A DNA stretch of 45,016 bases. Origin: a virus. The notes beneath the pieces are model-generated. The model saw only the letters and a list, made by a program, of their open reading frames with translations, was not told the DNA's origin and ran no database searches. The translations under genes and the position numbers were made by a program. The DNA lies in IMG/VR virus record IMGVR_UViG_3300022542_000176, positions 1-45,016 of that record. One strand, written 5' to 3'. The stretch's first letter is position 1. Every line of letters starts with the position of its first letter. Of the stretch, positions 14,577-27,862 are shown piece by piece.

Positions 14577-14858
14577 ATGAATTTTGAATCTTACGAAGGG
14601 AGGGTTGTATCTGTTTTAATCATGGGCAAGGATAACCAGCAGGAAAATTATGTAGGGGTAGTCTGTATAGTTGAGGATGGGTTTATGGTGCTAGATGTAT
14701 CAGGAATTCATTCATTCCTTGACGAGGTCAATTTCCGCACAGAATTAATACAGAGCATTTGGGTATATCGTGAGTCTGATATAAAAAAGATGACAAAGGG
14801 CAGAAAGGTACAAGTCCGAGATAAGTATGAACTTGGGTATGGGCGTAAGCTAAAGTGA
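14577..14858 (+). CDS. Hypothetical beta-rich protein (93 aa)
   Basis: The ATG follows the previous TAG by one base, with AAAAAGGGGG upstream. Beta-type sequence (YEGRVVSVLIMGK, NYVGVVCIVEDGFMVLDVSG) resembling a small SH3-like or OB barrel, with a basic tail. Last gene before the putative origin. No family recognised. Confidence 0.6.
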   Translation: MNFESYEGRVVSVLIMGKDNQQENYVGVVCIVEDGFMVLDVSGIHSFLDEVNFRTELIQSIWVYRESDIKKMTKGRKVQVRDKYELGYGRKLK

Positions 14859-14968
14859 TAAGATATTACTATAAGATAGTAATTAGGGATGGGAGGGGAT
14901 ATATTATTTAAGCTCCTATCTTTTAAGGAAATTTATGAGCGGAAGCGTTACAGGGGCGTTATAAGAAA

Positions 14969-15004
14969 GTGACTGACAGTTACAAATCGTTACAAAGCGT
15001 GACA
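14969..15004 (+). repeat. Iteron cluster 1: four GTKAC-type repeats at 10-bp phase
   Basis: GTGACT at 14969, GTTACA at 14979, GTTACA at 14989 and GTGACA at 14999 start at exact 10-bp steps. Because 10 is not a multiple of 3, the pattern does not come from repeated amino acids, so it is a DNA-level signal. The first unit includes the GTG start codon of the ATPase gene. An extra GTTACA lies at 14947. Confidence 0.85.
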
Positions 15005-15973
15005 GGGATAAGAAATGTTCTTTGGAGGTTTAGGACTGGTGGTATTGATATTCGGGAGGCCGTGGATATTGTGGGAGCAATAGCAGACCTTTACCAAGTT
15101 AATAGAGTTGATGCCTTGGCTTGCGTAGAAGAGGTATATAGCTCAGCGGATGGAACAACTCTCTCAGAACGCATCGGTGATTTTATAGGTACTACTCAAG
15201 GATACTTTAGCGTGACGGAGTGTGACAAGGAGTTACATACCGTGACAGATGGAGATAAAACAAACAGACGGCAGATTTTACATCGCCTTGTTCGCAAGGG
15301 GGTTTTGCAAAGGCATCCTTCCAAGAATGGAGTGTTTAGGCGTATAGAACACGACTCACCTGTGATTGAGTGGGAGATTGCGGATATATCTGATGTGTTC
15401 AAGATAAGCTGGCCTTTCGAACTTGAGAATTATGCCCTTATGTATCCGAAGAATATCGCTGTTATTGCAGGTAGCCCGAATGCTGGCAAGACAGCTTTTC
15501 TTTTGAACTTAATTAAACTCAATATGGCTAACCATATGATTCATTACTACTCTTCGGAGATGGGGCCAGAGGAACTGAAGTTACGGTTGTCTAAGTTTGA
15601 GAACACGGACAAGTGGGTTTTTGATGCAAGGGAACGCTCAATGAACTTTGCTGATGTCATCTATCCAGACGATATAAACATCATTGATTATATTGAGATT
15701 GTGAGCGGTGAGTTCTTTAAGATTGCGGAAGAGTTGAGGGCGATATTTGACAAGCTAAATAAAGGTATTGCGGTGATCGCACTTCAGAAGAAACGAGGTG
15801 CTGAGCTAGGTAGAGGTGCAGAATTTAGCTTAGAAAAACCTCGCTTGTATTTATCCCTTGATGCAGGCTCGTTAAAGATTATCAAAGCAAAGAACTGGGC
15901 TGTCGAGGGTCAAAACCCTAACGATATGGAGTTCAAGTTCAGTCTAGTAAACGGGGCAAAATTCGTTTATTAA
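14969..15973 (+). CDS. Replication-type RecA/DnaB-like ATPase with winged helix
   Basis: The 334-aa product starts at GTG 14969 (the frame has no better start; ribosome site weak). Residues about 85-115 resemble a winged helix (NRRQILHRLVRKGVLQRHPSKNG). A Walker A motif sits near residue 168 (GSPNAGKTAF), followed by YYSSEMGPEELKLRL like the DnaB/RepA superfamily and a late strand with IAVIALQKKRG. It lacks the C-terminal length of a full DnaB, so it may be an origin-bound ATPase or helicase loader rather than a replicative helicase. The gene contains the iterons, as in lambda O. No DNA polymerase gene accompanies it, so host enzymes are likely recruited. Confidence 0.7.
   Translation: MTDSYKSLQSVTGIRNVLWRFRTGGIDIREAVDIVGAIADLYQVNRVDALACVEEVYSSADGTTLSERIGDFIGTTQGYFSVTECDKELHTVTDGDKTNRRQILHRLVRKGVLQRHPSKNGVFRRIEHDSPVIEWEIADISDVFKISWPFELENYALMYPKNIAVIAGSPNAGKTAFLLNLIKLNMANHMIHYYSSEMGPEELKLRLSKFENTDKWVFDARERSMNFADVIYPDDINIIDYIEIVSGEFFKIAEELRAIFDKLNKGIAVIALQKKRGAELGRGAEFSLEKPRLYLSLDAGSLKIIKAKNWAVEGQNPNDMEFKFSLVNGAKFVY
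15212..15247 (+). repeat. Iteron cluster 2: four GTKAC-type repeats at 10-bp phase
   Basis: GTGACG at 15212, GTGACA at 15222, GTTACA at 15232 and GTGACA at 15242, again in exact 10-bp steps, inside the coding region between the N-terminal part and the winged-helix part of the ATPase. Confidence 0.85.
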
Positions 15974-18463: not shown

Positions 18464-18886
18464 ATGATTAAGAAACCCAAGCGTAAAAGCGTAGCGAAGT
18501 TGAAGAAGGAAGTTTGGGAAATTTTCAGCAAATATATCCGTATGAGGGATTGCTTGAGGACAACGAACTGTGCTAGTTTCGGGCTTTGTATTACCTGTGG
18601 AAAGAGGTATCATTTTAAGCTACTTCAAGCGGGACACTTTATTCCTGGTCGGCATAACGCTAATCTATTCTCAGAAGACGGGACACACGCCCAGTGTTAT
18701 AATTGCAATATAAATCTTAAAGGTAATACCCTGGAATATCGCCGCCAGATAGTAAGTCTATATGGCGAAGGAAAAGATGTGGAACTAGAGGAGATAGACA
18801 AGGAGATAAAGAAGTTTAATGCGGCTGAGCTAACCAAACTCAAAGAGTATTATACTCAGAAGATAAAACAACTTGAGGAGGTATAA
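18464..18886 (+). CDS. ninG: NinG (Rap) recombination protein
   Basis: The 140-aa product matches the NinG family: KLKKEVWEIFSKYIRMRDC at residues ~10-30, CITCGKRYHF near 41-50, the GHFIPGRHNANLF motif near 57-69, and HAQCYNCNINLKGN near 75-88. Phage lambda NinG/Rap targets recombination intermediates (Holliday junction/D-loop) and is found in phage recombination modules. The Cys residues form a zinc site as in HNH-like nucleases. Full length for the family. Confidence 0.9.
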   Translation: MIKKPKRKSVAKLKKEVWEIFSKYIRMRDCLRTTNCASFGLCITCGKRYHFKLLQAGHFIPGRHNANLFSEDGTHAQCYNCNINLKGNTLEYRRQIVSLYGEGKDVELEEIDKEIKKFNAAELTKLKEYYTQKIKQLEEV

Positions 18887-19422: not shown

Positions 19423-19602
19423 ATGACGAAACTCTGGGAAATGCTATCTAAAGAGAACAAAGAGAAACTAGGTCTGATTTATGAAAAACTTACAGGTAAG
19501 AAGTGGATACCACCTAAGCAGAAGTCTAAAGATATTCAAATCGAGAACTTAGCAGAGCTTAGCAAGATTATGAAGGAGAAGCCTCGTTCTGGGAAGAAAT
19601 GA
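19423..19602 (+). CDS. Small basic protein (59 aa)
   Basis: ATG 19423 preceded by ATAGGGAA. Helical, Lys-rich (LWEMLSKENKEKLGLIYEKLTGKK, LAELSKIMKEKPRSGKK). Stop overlaps the next start (AATGAG). No family recognised. Confidence 0.5.
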   Translation: MTKLWEMLSKENKEKLGLIYEKLTGKKWIPPKQKSKDIQIENLAELSKIMKEKPRSGKK

Positions 19603-20012
19603 GAAGAATAGAAGGAGAGGATTTACCTTACCCTTGGGAAATACATTTTAGCCAATGGCAAACGCGATGGATGTTAAAACCTGGTCATTGGAATATTATC
19701 AAGGAAGGGAAGTGGCCGTTCTCTATCAAAGAAGATGTAATGAGCCGTGCTGGTGTAAGCCATCACGCAGCTTTTGAGATGATTAGTATGGTTAAAGTTG
19801 AGCTAGAGATGAGGTTGGAAAGCGTTGGCAAAGATGGGTTTTTATGTTTAGCTCGGTATTATGATGAGTATGAGGATGAGCGTATTGCCAGGATGTTTAA
19901 TGTCCCTTATGAAAGAGTTAGGAAAAGAATTAAGAGAGCGATGCGTTATATTTCGGGGAGAAGAAAGAGCGTTGCATATAGCCAATGGATAAGTAATGGA
20001 TGGAAAGAATGA
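19599..20012 (+). CDS. Probable transcription regulator with sigma-region-4-like HTH (ArpU/RinA-type position)
   Basis: The 137-aa product ends in GFLCLARYYDEYEDERIARMFNVPYERVRKRIKRAMRYISGRR, in which YEDERIARMFNVPYERVRKRIKRA is a sigma70 region-4/HTH pattern. Similar small proteins regulate late transcription in other phages. It sits in the middle of the early operon, consistent with a switch to later genes, but no target promoter is visible. Confidence 0.6.
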   Translation: MRRIEGEDLPYPWEIHFSQWQTRWMLKPGHWNIIKEGKWPFSIKEDVMSRAGVSHHAAFEMISMVKVELEMRLESVGKDGFLCLARYYDEYEDERIARMFNVPYERVRKRIKRAMRYISGRRKSVAYSQWISNGWKE

Positions 20013-23792: not shown

Positions 23793-24020
23793 ATGCTAAA
23801 GGGTATCAATTTTCGGGAATTTCTCAGTGACCACAAAGAGTGGCATGCATTTGTCGAAGGGTTCTGCGATGGCTTTTGTGTGTGGAAAGTAAGATACCCT
23901 ATGTCTGACGAGTTAAAAGAAAGCACAAGCAAAGAACACCATTATTACAATGGGGGTCGTGTTGTAGGGTTTATAGGTTTAGTCTGGTTCTGGATAGGAG
24001 TATATAAGGCGGTAACATGA
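23793..24020 (+). CDS. Hypothetical protein with C-terminal hydrophobic segment (75 aa)
   Basis: Start at ATG 23793 rather than the TTG at 23781 in the same frame. Aromatic-rich N-terminus (FREFLSDHKEWHAFVEGFCDGFCVWK) and a C-terminal VVGFIGLVWFWIGVYKAV hydrophobic helix. No family recognised. Confidence 0.5.
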   Translation: MLKGINFREFLSDHKEWHAFVEGFCDGFCVWKVRYPMSDELKESTSKEHHYYNGGRVVGFIGLVWFWIGVYKAVT

Positions 24021-24211
24021 AAACCACAGTGAGAATACCAGAGGATATAAAATTAGTGAATAGTCCAGATTCAGGTTCTAGTTTAATTTCATTACGAGAA
24101 TGGTATATAGCATCCGACAAGTTATGCACAAATTGGACTATAACTAACTCACTCTTGCGTTATCTAGGAGCTAAGCCAATGAAACAGGAGCCAAAAAGAT
24201 ATAGCTTATGA
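24017..24211 (+). CDS. Hypothetical small protein (64 aa)
   Basis: ATG overlaps the previous stop by 4 bases. Contains SGSSLISLREWYIASDKLC and a basic C-terminus. No family recognised. Confidence 0.5.
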   Translation: MKTTVRIPEDIKLVNSPDSGSSLISLREWYIASDKLCTNWTITNSLLRYLGAKPMKQEPKRYSL

Positions 24212-24347
24212 ATGTGGGAAATGCAAGAAGATTATTACTGACGAGCCTCAATGGAGATATAGATATTATATCTACAAGGAGAGAAAGGTAATAACTATGC
24301 GATTCCCAGTCTGCGAGGAGTGCCAATGCCAGGAAAGAAATACCTAA
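24201..24347 (+). CDS. Zinc-ribbon protein with an apparent ATA start codon (48 aa)
   Basis: AGGAG (24186-24190) lies 10 bases before ATA 24201, after which the frame encodes AYECGKCKKIITDEPQWRYR and ends RFPVCEECQCQERNT, two CxxC pairs. No ATG/GTG/TTG fits; upstream in frame is a TGA at 24180. Either the ATG has mutated to ATA (gene damaged) or initiation is at a rare codon. Confidence 0.4.
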   Translation: MAYECGKCKKIITDEPQWRYRYYIYKERKVITMRFPVCEECQCQERNT

Positions 24348-24517
24348 CAGAAGAAAAGTTTGAGGAATGGAAGAGTAACGATTTTCAGCACGTCTCAGAG
24401 ACTTGCTTCCGCATATCTAAAAAGGTGGCTAGAATGGAGGGTGTGGTTTGGATATTAGTACCTCTAACGATTGCCATTTTAGCGATGATAGTCCACATAT
24501 TGAAGAACGGGATATGA
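24326..24517 (+). CDS. Small XhlA-like/holin-associated membrane protein (63 aa)
   Basis: Start at ATG 24326 because GAGGAG (24315-24320) lies 5 bases upstream. A charged coiled N-terminal part (EEKFEEWKSNDFQHVSETCFRISKK) is followed by one C-terminal membrane helix (GVVWILVPLTIAILAMIVHIL). This shape resembles XhlA/holin accessory proteins, but no endolysin is nearby. Confidence 0.5.
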   Translation: MPGKKYLTEEKFEEWKSNDFQHVSETCFRISKKVARMEGVVWILVPLTIAILAMIVHILKNGI

Positions 24518-24543
24518 AGGGGAGCTATTTCTAACTCCCCTTC
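24516..24543. terminator. Bidirectional hairpin between convergent operons
   Basis: A perfect 9-bp stem GAAGGGGAG/CTCCCCTTC with a 10-base loop sits exactly where the rightward early operon and leftward operon meet. No long T-run on either side, so termination may be partial. Confidence 0.55.
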
Positions 24544-24833
24544 CCTTCGGCTTTGGCTAGAGCATGAGCAGCTTGGAATCTTGCGTTTTTATAGGAACAC
24601 CAACATATTCCAACATCGTGGTCGCATTCTTCAACAACCAAAAGGTCAGTTTCAGCTAGTAGGTTCTTCAACGCCTCATACATATCTGAATAACTATTAA
24701 GGATTTGGCATAAACGCTCAGCGTTTTTTAGTGTCTGAGTTGTGAAGATTACCCCGCCACTCTGAGTTACTTCTATCTTGCCATTAGGGTCTAGTGGATC
24801 AAACTGCCACTTCCATTCTCCTTTTGTGTACAT
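24531..24833 (-). CDS. Phage early protein of the 'SAAPDMYEAL' type (100 aa)
   Basis: Start at the ATG on the minus strand at 24831-24833, 8 bases from GGAGG. Begins MYTKGEWKWQFDPLD and has CQILNSYSDMYEALKNLLAETD and HALAKAEGKG, the pattern of a common phage protein in which 'DMYEAL' is a conserved helix. Function unknown. Last gene of the leftward operon. Confidence 0.7.
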   Translation of the reverse strand: MYTKGEWKWQFDPLDPNGKIEVTQSGGVIFTTQTLKNAERLCQILNSYSDMYEALKNLLAETDLLVVEECDHDVGICWCSYKNARFQAAHALAKAEGKGS

Positions 24834-24868
24834 TTTAATACCCTCCTTTCCTTTAATGGTTGCTACTA

Positions 24869-25066
24869 TCATTTTGTTTCCTTTGTTAATCTGTCTATTA
24901 GTTTTTTCAGGGTTGATATTTGAGCATCCTGTATTATAATGATAATTACAGCTAACGTAGCTCCGATAGCCCAACCTAAGCCTCTCCAATTGTGGTATAT
25001 GGCATTTGAAACTATGCCTATGCCACCGAAGGTTAGCATTAAGCTAAATAATATCCTATTTTTCAT
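24869..25066 (-). CDS. Small two-helix membrane protein with coiled tail (65 aa)
   Basis: Start at the inner ATG (25064-25066) because GGGGGAG lies 4 bases before it. Two hydrophobic segments (ILFSLMLTFGGIGIVSNAIY, WAIGATLAVIIIII) and a charged coil (STLKKLIDRLTKETK). Possible holin-like protein. Confidence 0.55.
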   Translation of the reverse strand: MKNRILFSLMLTFGGIGIVSNAIYHNWRGLGWAIGATLAVIIIIIQDAQISTLKKLIDRLTKETK

Positions 25067-25194
25067 TTCTCCCCCTTTGGCCAGACATTTCCACACCGAT
25101 TGCAGATATAGGTATTCTTATTCTGTCCGTTCTTATCCTGTAAGCGGTATCTAGCACAGGTACTCCCACATTCAGGACATTTTGGTTTGTTCAT
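25063..25194 (-). CDS. Zinc-ribbon protein (43 aa)
   Basis: Start at 25192-25194 on the minus strand; two CxxC pairs (CPECGSTCARY near residue 6; CNRCGN near residue 32). Overlaps the next gene's start by 4 bases (ATGA). GGAGGTAAACT precedes the start. Confidence 0.65.
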   Translation of the reverse strand: MNKPKCPECGSTCARYRLQDKNGQNKNTYICNRCGNVWPKGEK

Positions 25195-25384
25195 AGTTTA
25201 CCTCCTTATCTCGTAATGCTTCAACTTCGGTAGTAATTTCATCTATTAACTCTCTTAGCCATTGACGCATTGACGACCAATTATCTGCCTCGTATTGGCT
25301 ATCGGACAATGCTTCGTGAGCCTCATAATTCCCATCTTCGTAGTGATTAACTTTTAGGTCTAGCCAACTCTCTGTAATTTTCAT
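25172..25384 (-). CDS. Hypothetical acidic protein (70 aa)
   Basis: GGAGGTAGAAA precedes the start. Acidic and helical (YEDGNYEAHEALSDSQYEADNW, LRELIDEITTEVEALRDKE). No family recognised. Confidence 0.6.
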   Translation of the reverse strand: MKITESWLDLKVNHYEDGNYEAHEALSDSQYEADNWSSMRQWLRELIDEITTEVEALRDKEVNYEQTKMS

Positions 25385-25463
25385 TTTCTACCTCCTTCTT
25401 TTGATTTTGCTTACAGACTTTACAGGTTTCGGGATGCTTCCAGAGACAAGTAGCACAGGTCAT
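25347..25463 (-). CDS. Cys-rich mini-protein (38 aa)
   Basis: Minus-strand ATG at 25461-25463; CATCLWKHPETCKVC is a two-pair Cys cluster suggestive of a zinc knuckle. Overlaps its downstream neighbour by 38 bases and has only a weak ribosome site, so moderate confidence. Confidence 0.4.
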   Translation of the reverse strand: MTCATCLWKHPETCKVCKQNQKKEVENENYRELARPKS

Positions 25464-25645
25464 TTTAACTTCTTGCCTTTCTGTTGTGCATAACCTGTGG
25501 GGATTGATGTTCCCTCTGTTCTTTGAGATAGTATCACAAAAAACCTAACTATCTGTAAAGCATTGGAAAGAACATCCTTTGACTCCTCAGTATCAAAATC
25601 CTCAAAGGTAATCTCGACACTATTGCTCTTGGTTGTAAATATCAT
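25460..25645 (-). CDS. Hypothetical protein (61 aa)
   Basis: GGAGGGAAGA precedes the start. Starts MIFTTKSNSVEITFEDFDTE, then a helix ESKDVLSNALQIVRFFVILS and a basic tail. No family recognised. Confidence 0.6.
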   Translation of the reverse strand: MIFTTKSNSVEITFEDFDTEESKDVLSNALQIVRFFVILSQRTEGTSIPTGYAQQKGKKLK

Positions 25646-25656
25646 TCTTCCCTCCT

Positions 25657-25851
25657 TTAATTCTGTATTGAGATTCTATTGTAACCTCTAAACATCTGAT
25701 TATAAGACTCGTGGGTTTGCTCTCGACCTAAAGCAATCCCGATATTGATTGCTAGACTAAGAGTAGTCATAAAAGTCTCCAAGTCTCGGCAATCCTTGTG
25801 TAGTTTAGGAATAGGGCGGTTCATTAGTTTAGATATTTCAAGATTAGTCAT
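25657..25851 (-). CDS. Hypothetical helical protein (64 aa)
   Basis: Begins TNLEISKLMNRPIPKLHKDC and continues LETFMTTLSLAINIGIALG. Weak ribosome site (AGAAGAT). No family recognised. Confidence 0.5.
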   Translation of the reverse strand: MTNLEISKLMNRPIPKLHKDCRDLETFMTTLSLAINIGIALGREQTHESYNQMFRGYNRISIQN

Positions 25852-25864
25852 AGTTTATCTTCTT

Positions 25865-26224
25865 TCACCTATAATAATATACTTGACCATCAAACTCTAC
25901 CTCAGAGTAGTCCATTCTGAGTTCATTGGCTGCCTCTTCCCAATCTATACAAGTGGCGGGCCAACCCATATCTCTAGGAATAGCACCAATGTCTATGGCG
26001 AATTCCTGTGCGTAATCTTCAAAGTAGTCTTCATGGATTAAGGTCATGCCATCTTCGGGGCTATCGCCACCACAATCTCTCAACTCTTCAATTAAGGCTT
26101 GGAGCTTTGACAGTTCTGCTTTGTCCTCACTAGCAAGCTCATCGTCAGCTTCCAATTCCTCAATTCTTTCGAGAATGTCCCGACTGTCAATGATGTCTTG
26201 GGTGTTACTTATTGCATTTGTCAT
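25865..26224 (-). CDS. Acidic protein with ArdA-like C-terminus (possible antirestriction)
   Basis: 119 aa, strongly acidic (ILERIEELEADDELASEDKAELSKL). The C-terminal part DYFEDYAQEFAIDIGAIPRDM followed by CIDWEEAANELRMDYSEVEFDG resembles the end of ArdA-type antirestriction proteins (EEFAEE ... YIDYExMARDLE ... V-E-D/G), which mimic DNA. The high acidity agrees with DNA mimicry. GGAGAGAGAAA ribosome site. The match is partial; treat as hypothesis. Confidence 0.55.
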   Translation of the reverse strand: MTNAISNTQDIIDSRDILERIEELEADDELASEDKAELSKLQALIEELRDCGGDSPEDGMTLIHEDYFEDYAQEFAIDIGAIPRDMGWPATCIDWEEAANELRMDYSEVEFDGQVYYYR

Positions 26225-26264
26225 TTTCTCTCTCCTTTCCTGCCTATTAAGACAGGTTTATGGG

Positions 26265-26432
26265 TTATTTGACTTGTTCTAATTCTTTATGATAATGCCT
26301 TTCATACTCCTTTCTAATCCAGTCTTCATAGTTAGTTTTCGACCAATGTTTTGGAAAGGTGTCTTGCTTTGTTCCCCTAACAAGTGCGACTGATGCTAGG
26401 GCATTGCTTCTGAATTGTAGAAAACTTATCAT
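26265..26432 (-). CDS. Hypothetical protein (55 aa)
   Basis: Minus-strand ATG at 26430-26432 with GGAGGTAAAGGAA upstream. Encodes MISFLQFRSNALASVALVRG and ends KEYERHYHKELEQVK; basic/helical C-terminus with YEDWIRKEYERHYH. No family recognised. Confidence 0.6.
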   Translation of the reverse strand: MISFLQFRSNALASVALVRGTKQDTFPKHWSKTNYEDWIRKEYERHYHKELEQVK

Positions 26433-26492
26433 TTCCTTTACCTCCTTTCTTTTAGTTTTGAAGCTGATGCCTGGACTGGTAATTTAGTTTAT

Positions 26493-26858
26493 TTAGCAAT
26501 CGCAGGCTTCGCTGAACCATAGGGGATAAATTATTGACCCTATATTTCTGTCCTGCCAATCTTCGCCTGGGTGTGTAACTATTCCTGCTGCTTGGATTTT
26601 AGTTCCCTCTGGTAGTGAGTCAAAGAAAGTTCCGTGTGCGTGCCAACAAGCGTTTATCAAGTGGCGGCGATTCCCTCTATTTGTTATTGACTGCCCTAAT
26701 CTAGCACCTTTGCCCTTTGAACTTTTGACTCGTAGAGTAACCCTGTGCCTTGTGTCTGATAACCTCTGAAAGTTATTGAACTCTAAGTTGTTATCAAGCT
26801 CTTGATTAGCTTGGGTTAATGCCTTCTGGATGTCCTCATGTGTAGCGTTTATTATCAT
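26493..26858 (-). CDS. Conserved phage hypothetical protein (121 aa)
   Basis: First gene of the leftward operon. Recognisable pattern VTLRVKSSKGKGARLGQSI, NACWHAHGTFFDSLPEGTKI and DWQDRNIGSIIYPLWFSEAC, seen in many tailed-phage early regions without known function. GGAGGCAAC ribosome site; ~70 bases downstream of the promoter. Confidence 0.75.
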   Translation of the reverse strand: MIINATHEDIQKALTQANQELDNNLEFNNFQRLSDTRHRVTLRVKSSKGKGARLGQSITNRGNRRHLINACWHAHGTFFDSLPEGTKIQAAGIVTHPGEDWQDRNIGSIIYPLWFSEACDC

Positions 26859-26935
26859 GTTGCCTCCTCTACCAGCCCAGGAATCAACCTCAAAACATTA
26901 TTTAATTGTTAAGGTACAAATTGTTTAATGATATG

Positions 26936-26964
26936 AGTATAAACTATCTCTCTATCTCTGTCAA
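26936..26964 (-). promoter_or_regulatory. Near-consensus sigma70 promoter for the leftward operon
   Basis: On the minus strand: TTGACA (complement of 26959-26964), a 17-bp spacer, then TATACT (complement of 26936-26941). Six of six and five of six matches. Transcription would start near 26929 and enter the gene at 26858. Confidence 0.85.
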
Positions 26965-27029
26965 TACCCCTTCACTCATAAAACAGGTAAAATATAGCTA
27001 CGGTTTATTCGTAAATCAAAAAGAAAATA

Positions 27030-27050
27030 TCAAGGGTTAAATCCCTTTGA
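27030..27050. promoter_or_regulatory. Imperfect palindrome in the divergent control region
   Basis: TCAAGGG at 27030-27036 and CCCTTTGA at 27043-27050 form an inverted repeat (one extra T) between the leftward promoter and the first rightward gene. Possible operator or attenuator. No clear rightward -35/-10 pair was found in this interval. Confidence 0.4.
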
Positions 27051-27063
27051 GTATAAAGGAGGC

Positions 27064-27129
27064 ATGATGATTTACTTAATGCCCTCTCTAGGGCTTCTAA
27101 GGTGCTTATTAAGTTATTGGAGGATATAA
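27064..27129 (+). CDS. Possible leader peptide (21 aa)
   Basis: ATG 27064 (AAAGGAGGC before it) reads MMIYLMPSLGLLRCLLSYWRI and its stop overlaps the next ATG (TAATG). Short, hydrophobic; may be a leader for translational coupling. Low confidence. Confidence 0.3.
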   Translation: MMIYLMPSLGLLRCLLSYWRI

Positions 27130-27293
27130 TGCCAGTAAGAATAAAGAAAGTTAATGGTTATAGAGTATCAACGCCGGGAGGAGTTAAAGCAAAGAGTACC
27201 ACAAAGAGAAAAGCCGAAGCTCAAAAGAGACTATTATATGCAGTCGACCATGGGTGGAAGCCTAATGGGAAGCCTGTTAAAAAGAAAAAATGA
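27129..27293 (+). CDS. Small basic phage protein (54 aa)
   Basis: Start at ATG 27129 (GGAGG 5 bases upstream). Reads MPVRIKKVNGYRVSTPGGVK and continues with Lys-rich STTKRKAEAQKRLLYAVDHGWKP. This 'RVSTPGGVKA' type recurs as a small basic protein in phage genomes; role unknown, perhaps nucleic-acid binding. Confidence 0.65.
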   Translation: MPVRIKKVNGYRVSTPGGVKAKSTTKRKAEAQKRLLYAVDHGWKPNGKPVKKKK

Positions 27294-27396
27294 AGGGGGA
27301 AAGAGTTAAGGGGGGTAGGGGGAATAAGTAATAGAGGGATGTCCTATTTATTAGATTATTATTATATCCTCTTATTATCCCCTCCTCTTATTAGTT
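27294..27396 (+). other. Purine-rich then pyrimidine-rich gene-free interval
   Basis: 27296-27340 is G/A-rich (runs of 5-6 G) and 27365-27390 is T/C-rich; the two halves could pair imperfectly. This lies just upstream of the small terminase, where a packaging signal might be placed. Confidence 0.35.
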
Positions 27397-27429
27397 AATC
27401 AAATTAATTAGCTTTAAGCTAGTTTGATT
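27397..27429. promoter_or_regulatory. Nested palindrome just upstream of the small terminase gene
   Basis: AATCAAA (27397-27403) pairs with TTTGATT (27423-27429) around an inner TAGCT/AGCTA stem (27409-27413 and 27417-27421). It ends 13 bases before the small-terminase ATG, which has no Shine-Dalgarno. May be a terminase recognition site, operator or translational control hairpin. Confidence 0.5.
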
Positions 27430-27442
27430 GTAGTATGTAATT

Positions 27443-27862
27443 ATGGCAGGTATTAAAGGTAAATCTGGAGGTAGACGTTCTGGTGCTGGTAGAAAGAAAG
27501 AACCTAGTACACAGCTAAAGGACGCAATAGGGGAAGTAAACCTCCCTAAGATTGTCAAAAACCTTGAGAGATGGTCTGAAGGCAAAGAGGTTGTCTGCCC
27601 TAAATGTGCAGAGAGAACAGGAGTCTATGTACCAGATACAGTAGCCTTGCAGAGTGCTATAGAGCTTCTTAATAGGAGACTAGGTAAAGTACCCCAACAG
27701 GTTCAAGTGGACATCACAGAGAAGGTACAGTTTACTGCTGACCAGATAGACACAATTCTTAATAGATTACTTGCTAGTCCTGAAGGGATAGAGTTCCTAA
27801 GACTACATATGAGGGCATTATTGCCTGAAGCCGTTGACGCTGAATATAAAGAAGTGGTATAA
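27443..27862 (+). CDS. terS: Small terminase subunit-like protein
   Basis: The 139-aa product begins GIKGKSGGRRSGAGRKKEPSTQ, the N-terminal basic tag common in phage terminase small subunits, and has helical segments (TVALQSAIELLNRRLGKVPQQVQV) then an acidic coiled end (EGIEFLRLHMRALLPEAVDAEY). A CPKC knuckle (VVCPKCAER) lies near residue 52. Precedes the large terminase by ~2.5 kb. Would bind the packaging site and guide TerL. No ribosome site upstream. Confidence 0.7.
   Translation: MAGIKGKSGGRRSGAGRKKEPSTQLKDAIGEVNLPKIVKNLERWSEGKEVVCPKCAERTGVYVPDTVALQSAIELLNRRLGKVPQQVQVDITEKVQFTADQIDTILNRLLASPEGIEFLRLHMRALLPEAVDAEYKEVV

Follow-up and report, generated by a model that had tools for sequence, protein, structure and literature searches.

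Two sets of iterons surround an A/T-rich stretch in the SaPIs, whose Rep–ori pairs are element specific. Phage P4 has two separated iteron elements, ori and crr, and the winged helix of its alpha protein is C-terminal. SaPI Rep, a helicase with its own DNA-binding domain, recognises the short iterons of its own origin and seems to do so in the form of two hexamers (PMC7581432). In P4, according to work cited in PMC4234260, the single protein alpha primes, unwinds and binds origin repeats by its winged helix. In lambdoid phages, as outlined in the relevant passages of PMC7466680 and PMC3985674, the iterons of ori-lambda lie inside the initiator gene O, with A/T-rich DNA alongside. For PLE RepA/Odn of Vibrio cholerae, the DNA-binding domain of the initiator and the origin covary, and cognate specificity has been tested (PMC8263062).

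Here we describe a viral locus, within an analysed stretch of 45,016 nucleotides (the window), in which two arrays of short phased repeats lie at the start of and inside a gene for a winged-helix ATPase. We consider it quite probable that these arrays are iterons bound by the winged helix of the DnaB/RecA-like ATPase that this gene encodes, and that they most likely form a replication origin. SaPI Rep, as a helicase reading its own iterons, is the closest functional analogue. However, the SaPI origin lies just downstream of rep, whereas here the arrays are usually inside the gene, in codons of the binding domain, and the predicted initiator has a DnaB/RadA fold instead of being a SaPI Rep-type helicase. 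As with lambdoid O and its origin, the arrays lie within the gene or at its start, where they presumably serve as the origin, but lambda iterons are 19 bp long while the units here are 10-bp hexamer units, outside the 18–20 bp range. Lambda O is a separate initiator that recruits P–DnaB, whereas the predicted binder here is the ATPase itself, and its PHROG and Pfam matches are DnaB-like (with PrimPol in fused relatives), not O-like. For lambda O, the relevant passages of PMC7466680 and PMC3985674 describe no iterons among the codons of the DNA-binding domain itself. P4 alpha uses a Toprim primase, whereas the proteins here either carry PrimPol or lack a primase, and their winged helix is internal or at the N terminus; PLE has intergenic, semi-palindromic iterons of about 30 bp and a RepA_N domain, in contrast to the 10-bp, mostly in-gene units found here. 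Relative to these systems, the novelty lies in a binder that is DnaB-like or PrimPol-linked, in repeat units of 10 bp, in sites that overlap codons for helix a2 of their reader, and in a residue–base code. Neither iterons in a PrimPol/DnaB-like gene nor hexamer–residue covariation turned up in the open-licence literature that we searched.

Array 1 (14947..15003, plus strand) comprises six sites, GTTAC at 14947, GTTAT at 14958, GTGAC at 14969, GTTAC at 14979 and 14989 and GTGAC at 14999, at steps of 11, 11, 10, 10 and 10 bp. Array 2 (15212..15246, plus strand) comprises four, GTGAC at 15212 and 15222, GTTAC at 15232 and GTGAC at 15242, at steps of 10, 10 and 10 bp. The initial annotation had reported two clusters of four GTKAC sites at exact 10-bp steps, and every one of these positions was confirmed on the plus strand; the 14947 and 14958 sites, at 11-bp steps, extend array 1 upstream of its GTKAC core (14969–15003). 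The ATPase gene (14969..15973, plus strand) encodes 334 residues from GTG 14969. This start codon is itself part of an iteron, which places cluster 1 across the beginning of the gene. An alternative start, GTG 14999, agrees with the homologues. Both start candidates fall inside iterons and have weak ribosome-binding sites; they are preceded by a possible leader ORF, MSGSVTGAL (14935..14964, plus strand), which as read from the sequence has a good ribosome-binding site and overlaps array 1. In a relative (L063:11700-11895, minus strand), array 1 consists of up to 14 GTAACG sites at 9-bp steps, which encode in-frame SNG repeats, and 10-bp steps.

The pair GTKACN5GTKAC occurs six times in the 45,016-base record, against 0.19 expected, and all six occurrences are within the two clusters. 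None of 100 dinucleotide shuffles contained six or more such pairs, and no GTKAC array of three or four sites arose in 300 Markov-simulated windows. GTKAC as such is not over-represented (115 in the record against 120 expected), so the unusual feature is the phasing: the locus has several direct repeats in phase, as iteron-type origins do. That the arrays are a chance or low-complexity repeat is contradicted by these pair counts and simulations, and by the synonymous-codon signal in 27 of 90 homologues described below, leaving this explanation a negligible probability.

For cluster 2 alone, the probability of all four sites falling in register, given the peptide encoded in the window, was 0.016. 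Within a single genome this is modest evidence, and the case therefore rests on homologues. The value also means that the peptide helps to produce the pattern, as would be expected if array 2 were a by-product of the conserved winged-helix peptide VTxCDxxLxxVT. We therefore assembled 108 homologous loci from scans of viral and prokaryote contigs. About one-third of the ATPase homologues have phased sites at the matching position of the winged-helix coding sequence, and array 2 is absent from about two-thirds. Where present, the DNA at the array-2 position holds a fixed register of 10, 11, 10, 10 and 10 bp, filled by a hexamer that differs between viruses: GTTACA (L001 and L056), GTGACA (L073), TCTACA (L128 and L129), TCGTCA (L208), CTTACA (L209), ACCACA (Methanosarcina virus MetMV), GGGACA (L153), ACTTCA (L217) and others. 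The encoded peptide follows the hexamer across relatives (SVTECDKELHTVT, SSTNIYNYLQLST, TTTDCHKQLQATT), shifting between SVT, SST, TTT and NLT.

Constraint beyond the protein sequence was measured in 90 non-redundant homologues by shuffling synonymous codons, which keeps each protein sequence. An excess of identity at lag 10 was found at p<0.01 in 27 of the 90, against about one expected, and z>3 was reached in 21 of 90, against one of 799 control windows downstream in the same genes. Neighbouring lags were flat, with a weaker excess at 20–21. Scans for GTKAC ×4 with periods of 9 and 12 as controls had each returned at least 120 matches, like period 10; these were therefore uninformative about a 10-bp preference and the synonymous shuffle was used instead. 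A peptide by-product is contradicted by the shuffles, by the changes in the peptide itself, and by the recurrence of the same hexamer in array 1 and in arrays outside the gene, and we regard it as very improbable. The initial annotation had argued that protein repetition does not explain 10-bp steps and had proposed aligning homologues to see whether phasing survives codon change. The 108 loci agree on both counts, in that phasing and register are kept while hexamer and codons change, as for a DNA element. Its suggestion that these are iterons in the initiator's own gene is likewise borne out, as far as sequence comparison can indicate, by the phasing in relatives.

The two arrays share one motif. 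When hexamers were called automatically from array 2 only, in 28 genomes, 12 of the 28 showed a second cluster elsewhere in the locus, in which the genome's own hexamer occurs three or more times, while foreign hexamers gave no cluster in 262 genome-by-hexamer trials. The second cluster was nearly always about 245–280 bp upstream of the array-2 region, with a spacing between array midpoints of 268 ± 9.5 bp (18 genomes). Array 1 was not detected in the close relatives L127–L129. In relatives with a PrimPol domain fused to the ATPase, both arrays are deep within the coding sequence. In another relative, L491, two sets of six TCGTCA sites at 9–12 bp steps are 260.5 bp apart, flank DNA of 69% A+T, and lie about 9 kb from the ATPase gene. 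Since these arrays are outside the gene, the in-gene arrangement is likely to be a portable two-array element. L491 thus shows the SaPI-type trait of two arrays around A/T-rich DNA; in the window, the A/T-rich stretch is upstream of array 1.

These arrangements bear on what the arrays are for. They could be operators for autoregulation, letting the ATPase repress its own transcription or set its timing, with the origin elsewhere; array 1 of the window is at the gene start, in keeping with this, and the covariation reported below speaks to binding rather than to purpose. We nevertheless consider it unlikely, because both arrays are deep within the coding sequence in the PrimPol fusions, the arrays of L491 flank A/T-rich DNA some 9 kb away, those of L224 are downstream of the gene, and the combination of A/T-rich DNA with four to six phased sites is the anatomy of an origin. 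The fixed spacing of two arrays, and the rapid diversification of the motif (at least 42 hexamer changes on the ATPase tree, which is poorly resolved), would also suit binding sites for copy control, incompatibility or partition by handcuffing, rather than a start site. Such a role is less probable still, given that the A/T-rich flank and a binder fused to primase and helicase domains point to initiation.

The 60 bp at 14851..14910, upstream of array 1, are 73% A+T, within the top 0.7% of the record's 60-bp windows, and are a candidate unwinding element. Within them is a perfect inverted repeat of 19 bp (14865..14883) with 8-bp arms and a 3-bp loop, ATTACTAT-AAG-ATAGTAAT. Both the stretch and the repeat had been noted in the initial annotation and were recovered here. 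In relatives, the A+T content 40–60 bp upstream of array 1 is 71–75%, compared with 55% in the gene, so that an A/T-rich candidate unwinding element, as expected of an iteron-type origin, adjoins the arrays in the window, in relatives and in L491. GC skew, which had been put forward as a further check, did not switch at the arrays when the window was analysed, and hence lends no support to an origin. Elsewhere, at about 24000–27500, GC skew drops and AT skew is negative where minus-strand ORFs form a divergently transcribed block.

The ATPase of the window matches Pfam DnaB_C at E=9e-6, just below the curated cutoff, which relatives exceed, and a PHROG DnaB-like family at E=8e-8. The family profile matches DnaB and RadA in the PDB, the fold of an AlphaFold2 model of the window protein (pLDDT 91) matches those of DnaB and RadA, and the Walker core is of the DnaB/RadA type. 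The model contains a canonical winged helix, with a1 at residues 65–75, b1 at 79–81, a2 at 82–89, a3 at 94–109 and the wing at 113–125. The predicted recognition helix a3 is encoded at 15248..15295 and the predicted wing strands at 15305..15343 (both plus strand). Array 2 encodes residues 82–93, which in the model form helix a2 and the turn leading into the recognition helix. Since array 2 is written into the codons of a2, the same bases serve as the DNA site and encode part of its predicted reader. Many relatives have an N-terminal PrimPol domain fused to the ATPase and one has a DnaG-type primase; the window ATPase has no fused primase, either through loss or because it never acquired one, and the window and the PrimPol fusions have the same arrangement of arrays. 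The annotated relatives are MetMV and a Methanomicrobiales virus; the MetMV paper makes no mention of replication genes or a replication origin.

Arg–G, Lys–G (opposite C) and Asn–A are classic protein–DNA contacts. We compared hexamers with protein columns in 54 non-redundant genomes, leaving out the array-coded columns; 24 of the 54 motifs were assigned by eye. The column that best predicted base 1 was K97+4 (R101 in the window); for base 2 it was K97+1 (T98) and for base 3 K97+5 (Q102), each at the top of about 265 columns for its base. In the window, the codons of T98, R101 and Q102 are within 15260..15274 (plus strand), and on the model these residues occupy one face of helix a3 (i, i+3, i+4; pLDDT 91). 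At base 1, G occurred with Arg in 18 of 21 genomes, T with Ser in 14 of 20, A with Asn or Val in 7 of 8, and C with His, Tyr or Gln in 5 of 5. At base 2, C accompanied Lys in 26 of 28 and T in none of 24, and at base 3, G accompanied Lys or Gln in 12 of 13. In the 30 genomes with automatically called motifs, the leading columns were again K97+1 for base 2 and K97+5 for base 3 (family-wise p 0.002 and 0.006, respectively), while K97+1 and K97+4 were the top two for base 1 (both 0.002). For hexamer base 4, no residue column stood out in either the 54-genome or the 30-genome set.

Shared ancestry was addressed with independent pairs supported on the poorly resolved tree. These were few; a sign test gave 6 of 6 for C2 with Lys (p=0.03) and 5:0 for G1 with Arg (p=0.06), with no pair in the wrong direction for either. 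Within the window's own clade, L128 has switched both motif (to TCTACA) and helix (TNRRQIL to KNLSAIL). Held-out genomes follow the rule: L219 (K,S,K) has eight TCGTCA sites, L160 (A,R,M) has GTAAC sites, and in L224 (D,R,K) a long array of GTGAC lies downstream of the gene. In an automatic held-out test, in which the array caller often chose unrelated simple repeats, GTNAC was found in 7 of 16 Arg-type genomes against none of 11 others (p=0.02). Furthermore, scans by DNA pattern only recovered two new family members, L475 (TCTACA) and L491 (TCGTCA), both with the predicted residues. The link between initiator and repeats, a trait of iteron origins, thus appears as strong covariation of the hexamer with the predicted recognition helix. 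This tracking supports the initial annotation's proposal that the winged helix of the ATPase is the putative binder.

Arrays of four GTKAC sites at 10-bp steps were also found mid-gene in unrelated phage initiators (L005, L018 and L032 among others), including those of E. coli prophages. Genes of this type are classed by PHROG as replication initiation protein, replisome organizer or O-like, and carry the Pfam DnaT domain; their arrays frequently have 5-bp pyrimidine or CTAGG-like repeats as neighbours. Such arrays may represent a widespread, separate class of origin. The window itself also encodes a NinG-like endonuclease (18464-18886) and a sigma70-r4/Q-like antitermination protein (19599-20012), which suggests late regulation of the lambdoid style.

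From the covariation we strongly infer direct binding of the arrays by the winged helix, and from their anatomy we infer origin activity. In the mechanism we propose, several ATPase subunits would line up with their winged helices on the phased iterons and, given the 10-bp steps, all on the same face of the DNA; the two arrays so occupied are separated by about 25 helical turns. The A/T-rich DNA close by would then open, and the ATPase, with PrimPol where fused, would start unwinding and priming at the arrays. With somewhat less confidence, though still on balance in its favour, we interpret these viruses as a family in which the origin iterons lie in codons of the reader domain and co-diversify with it by a three-residue code (R101 with G1, T98 with base 2, Q102 with base 3). 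Such a code would comprise well over a dozen natural specificities, with target sites predictable from protein sequence.

If this is true, covariation alone would have revealed a natural code by which a winged-helix domain recognises DNA. It would also mean that one stretch of DNA is both an origin and the code for part of the origin binder, so that each change in the site would also alter helix a2 of the reader. Co-evolution of initiator and origin, long discussed for plasmid incompatibility and phage conflicts, would become directly testable across many viruses, and the arrays would mark where the origins of uncultured viruses, those of methanogens among them, probably lie.
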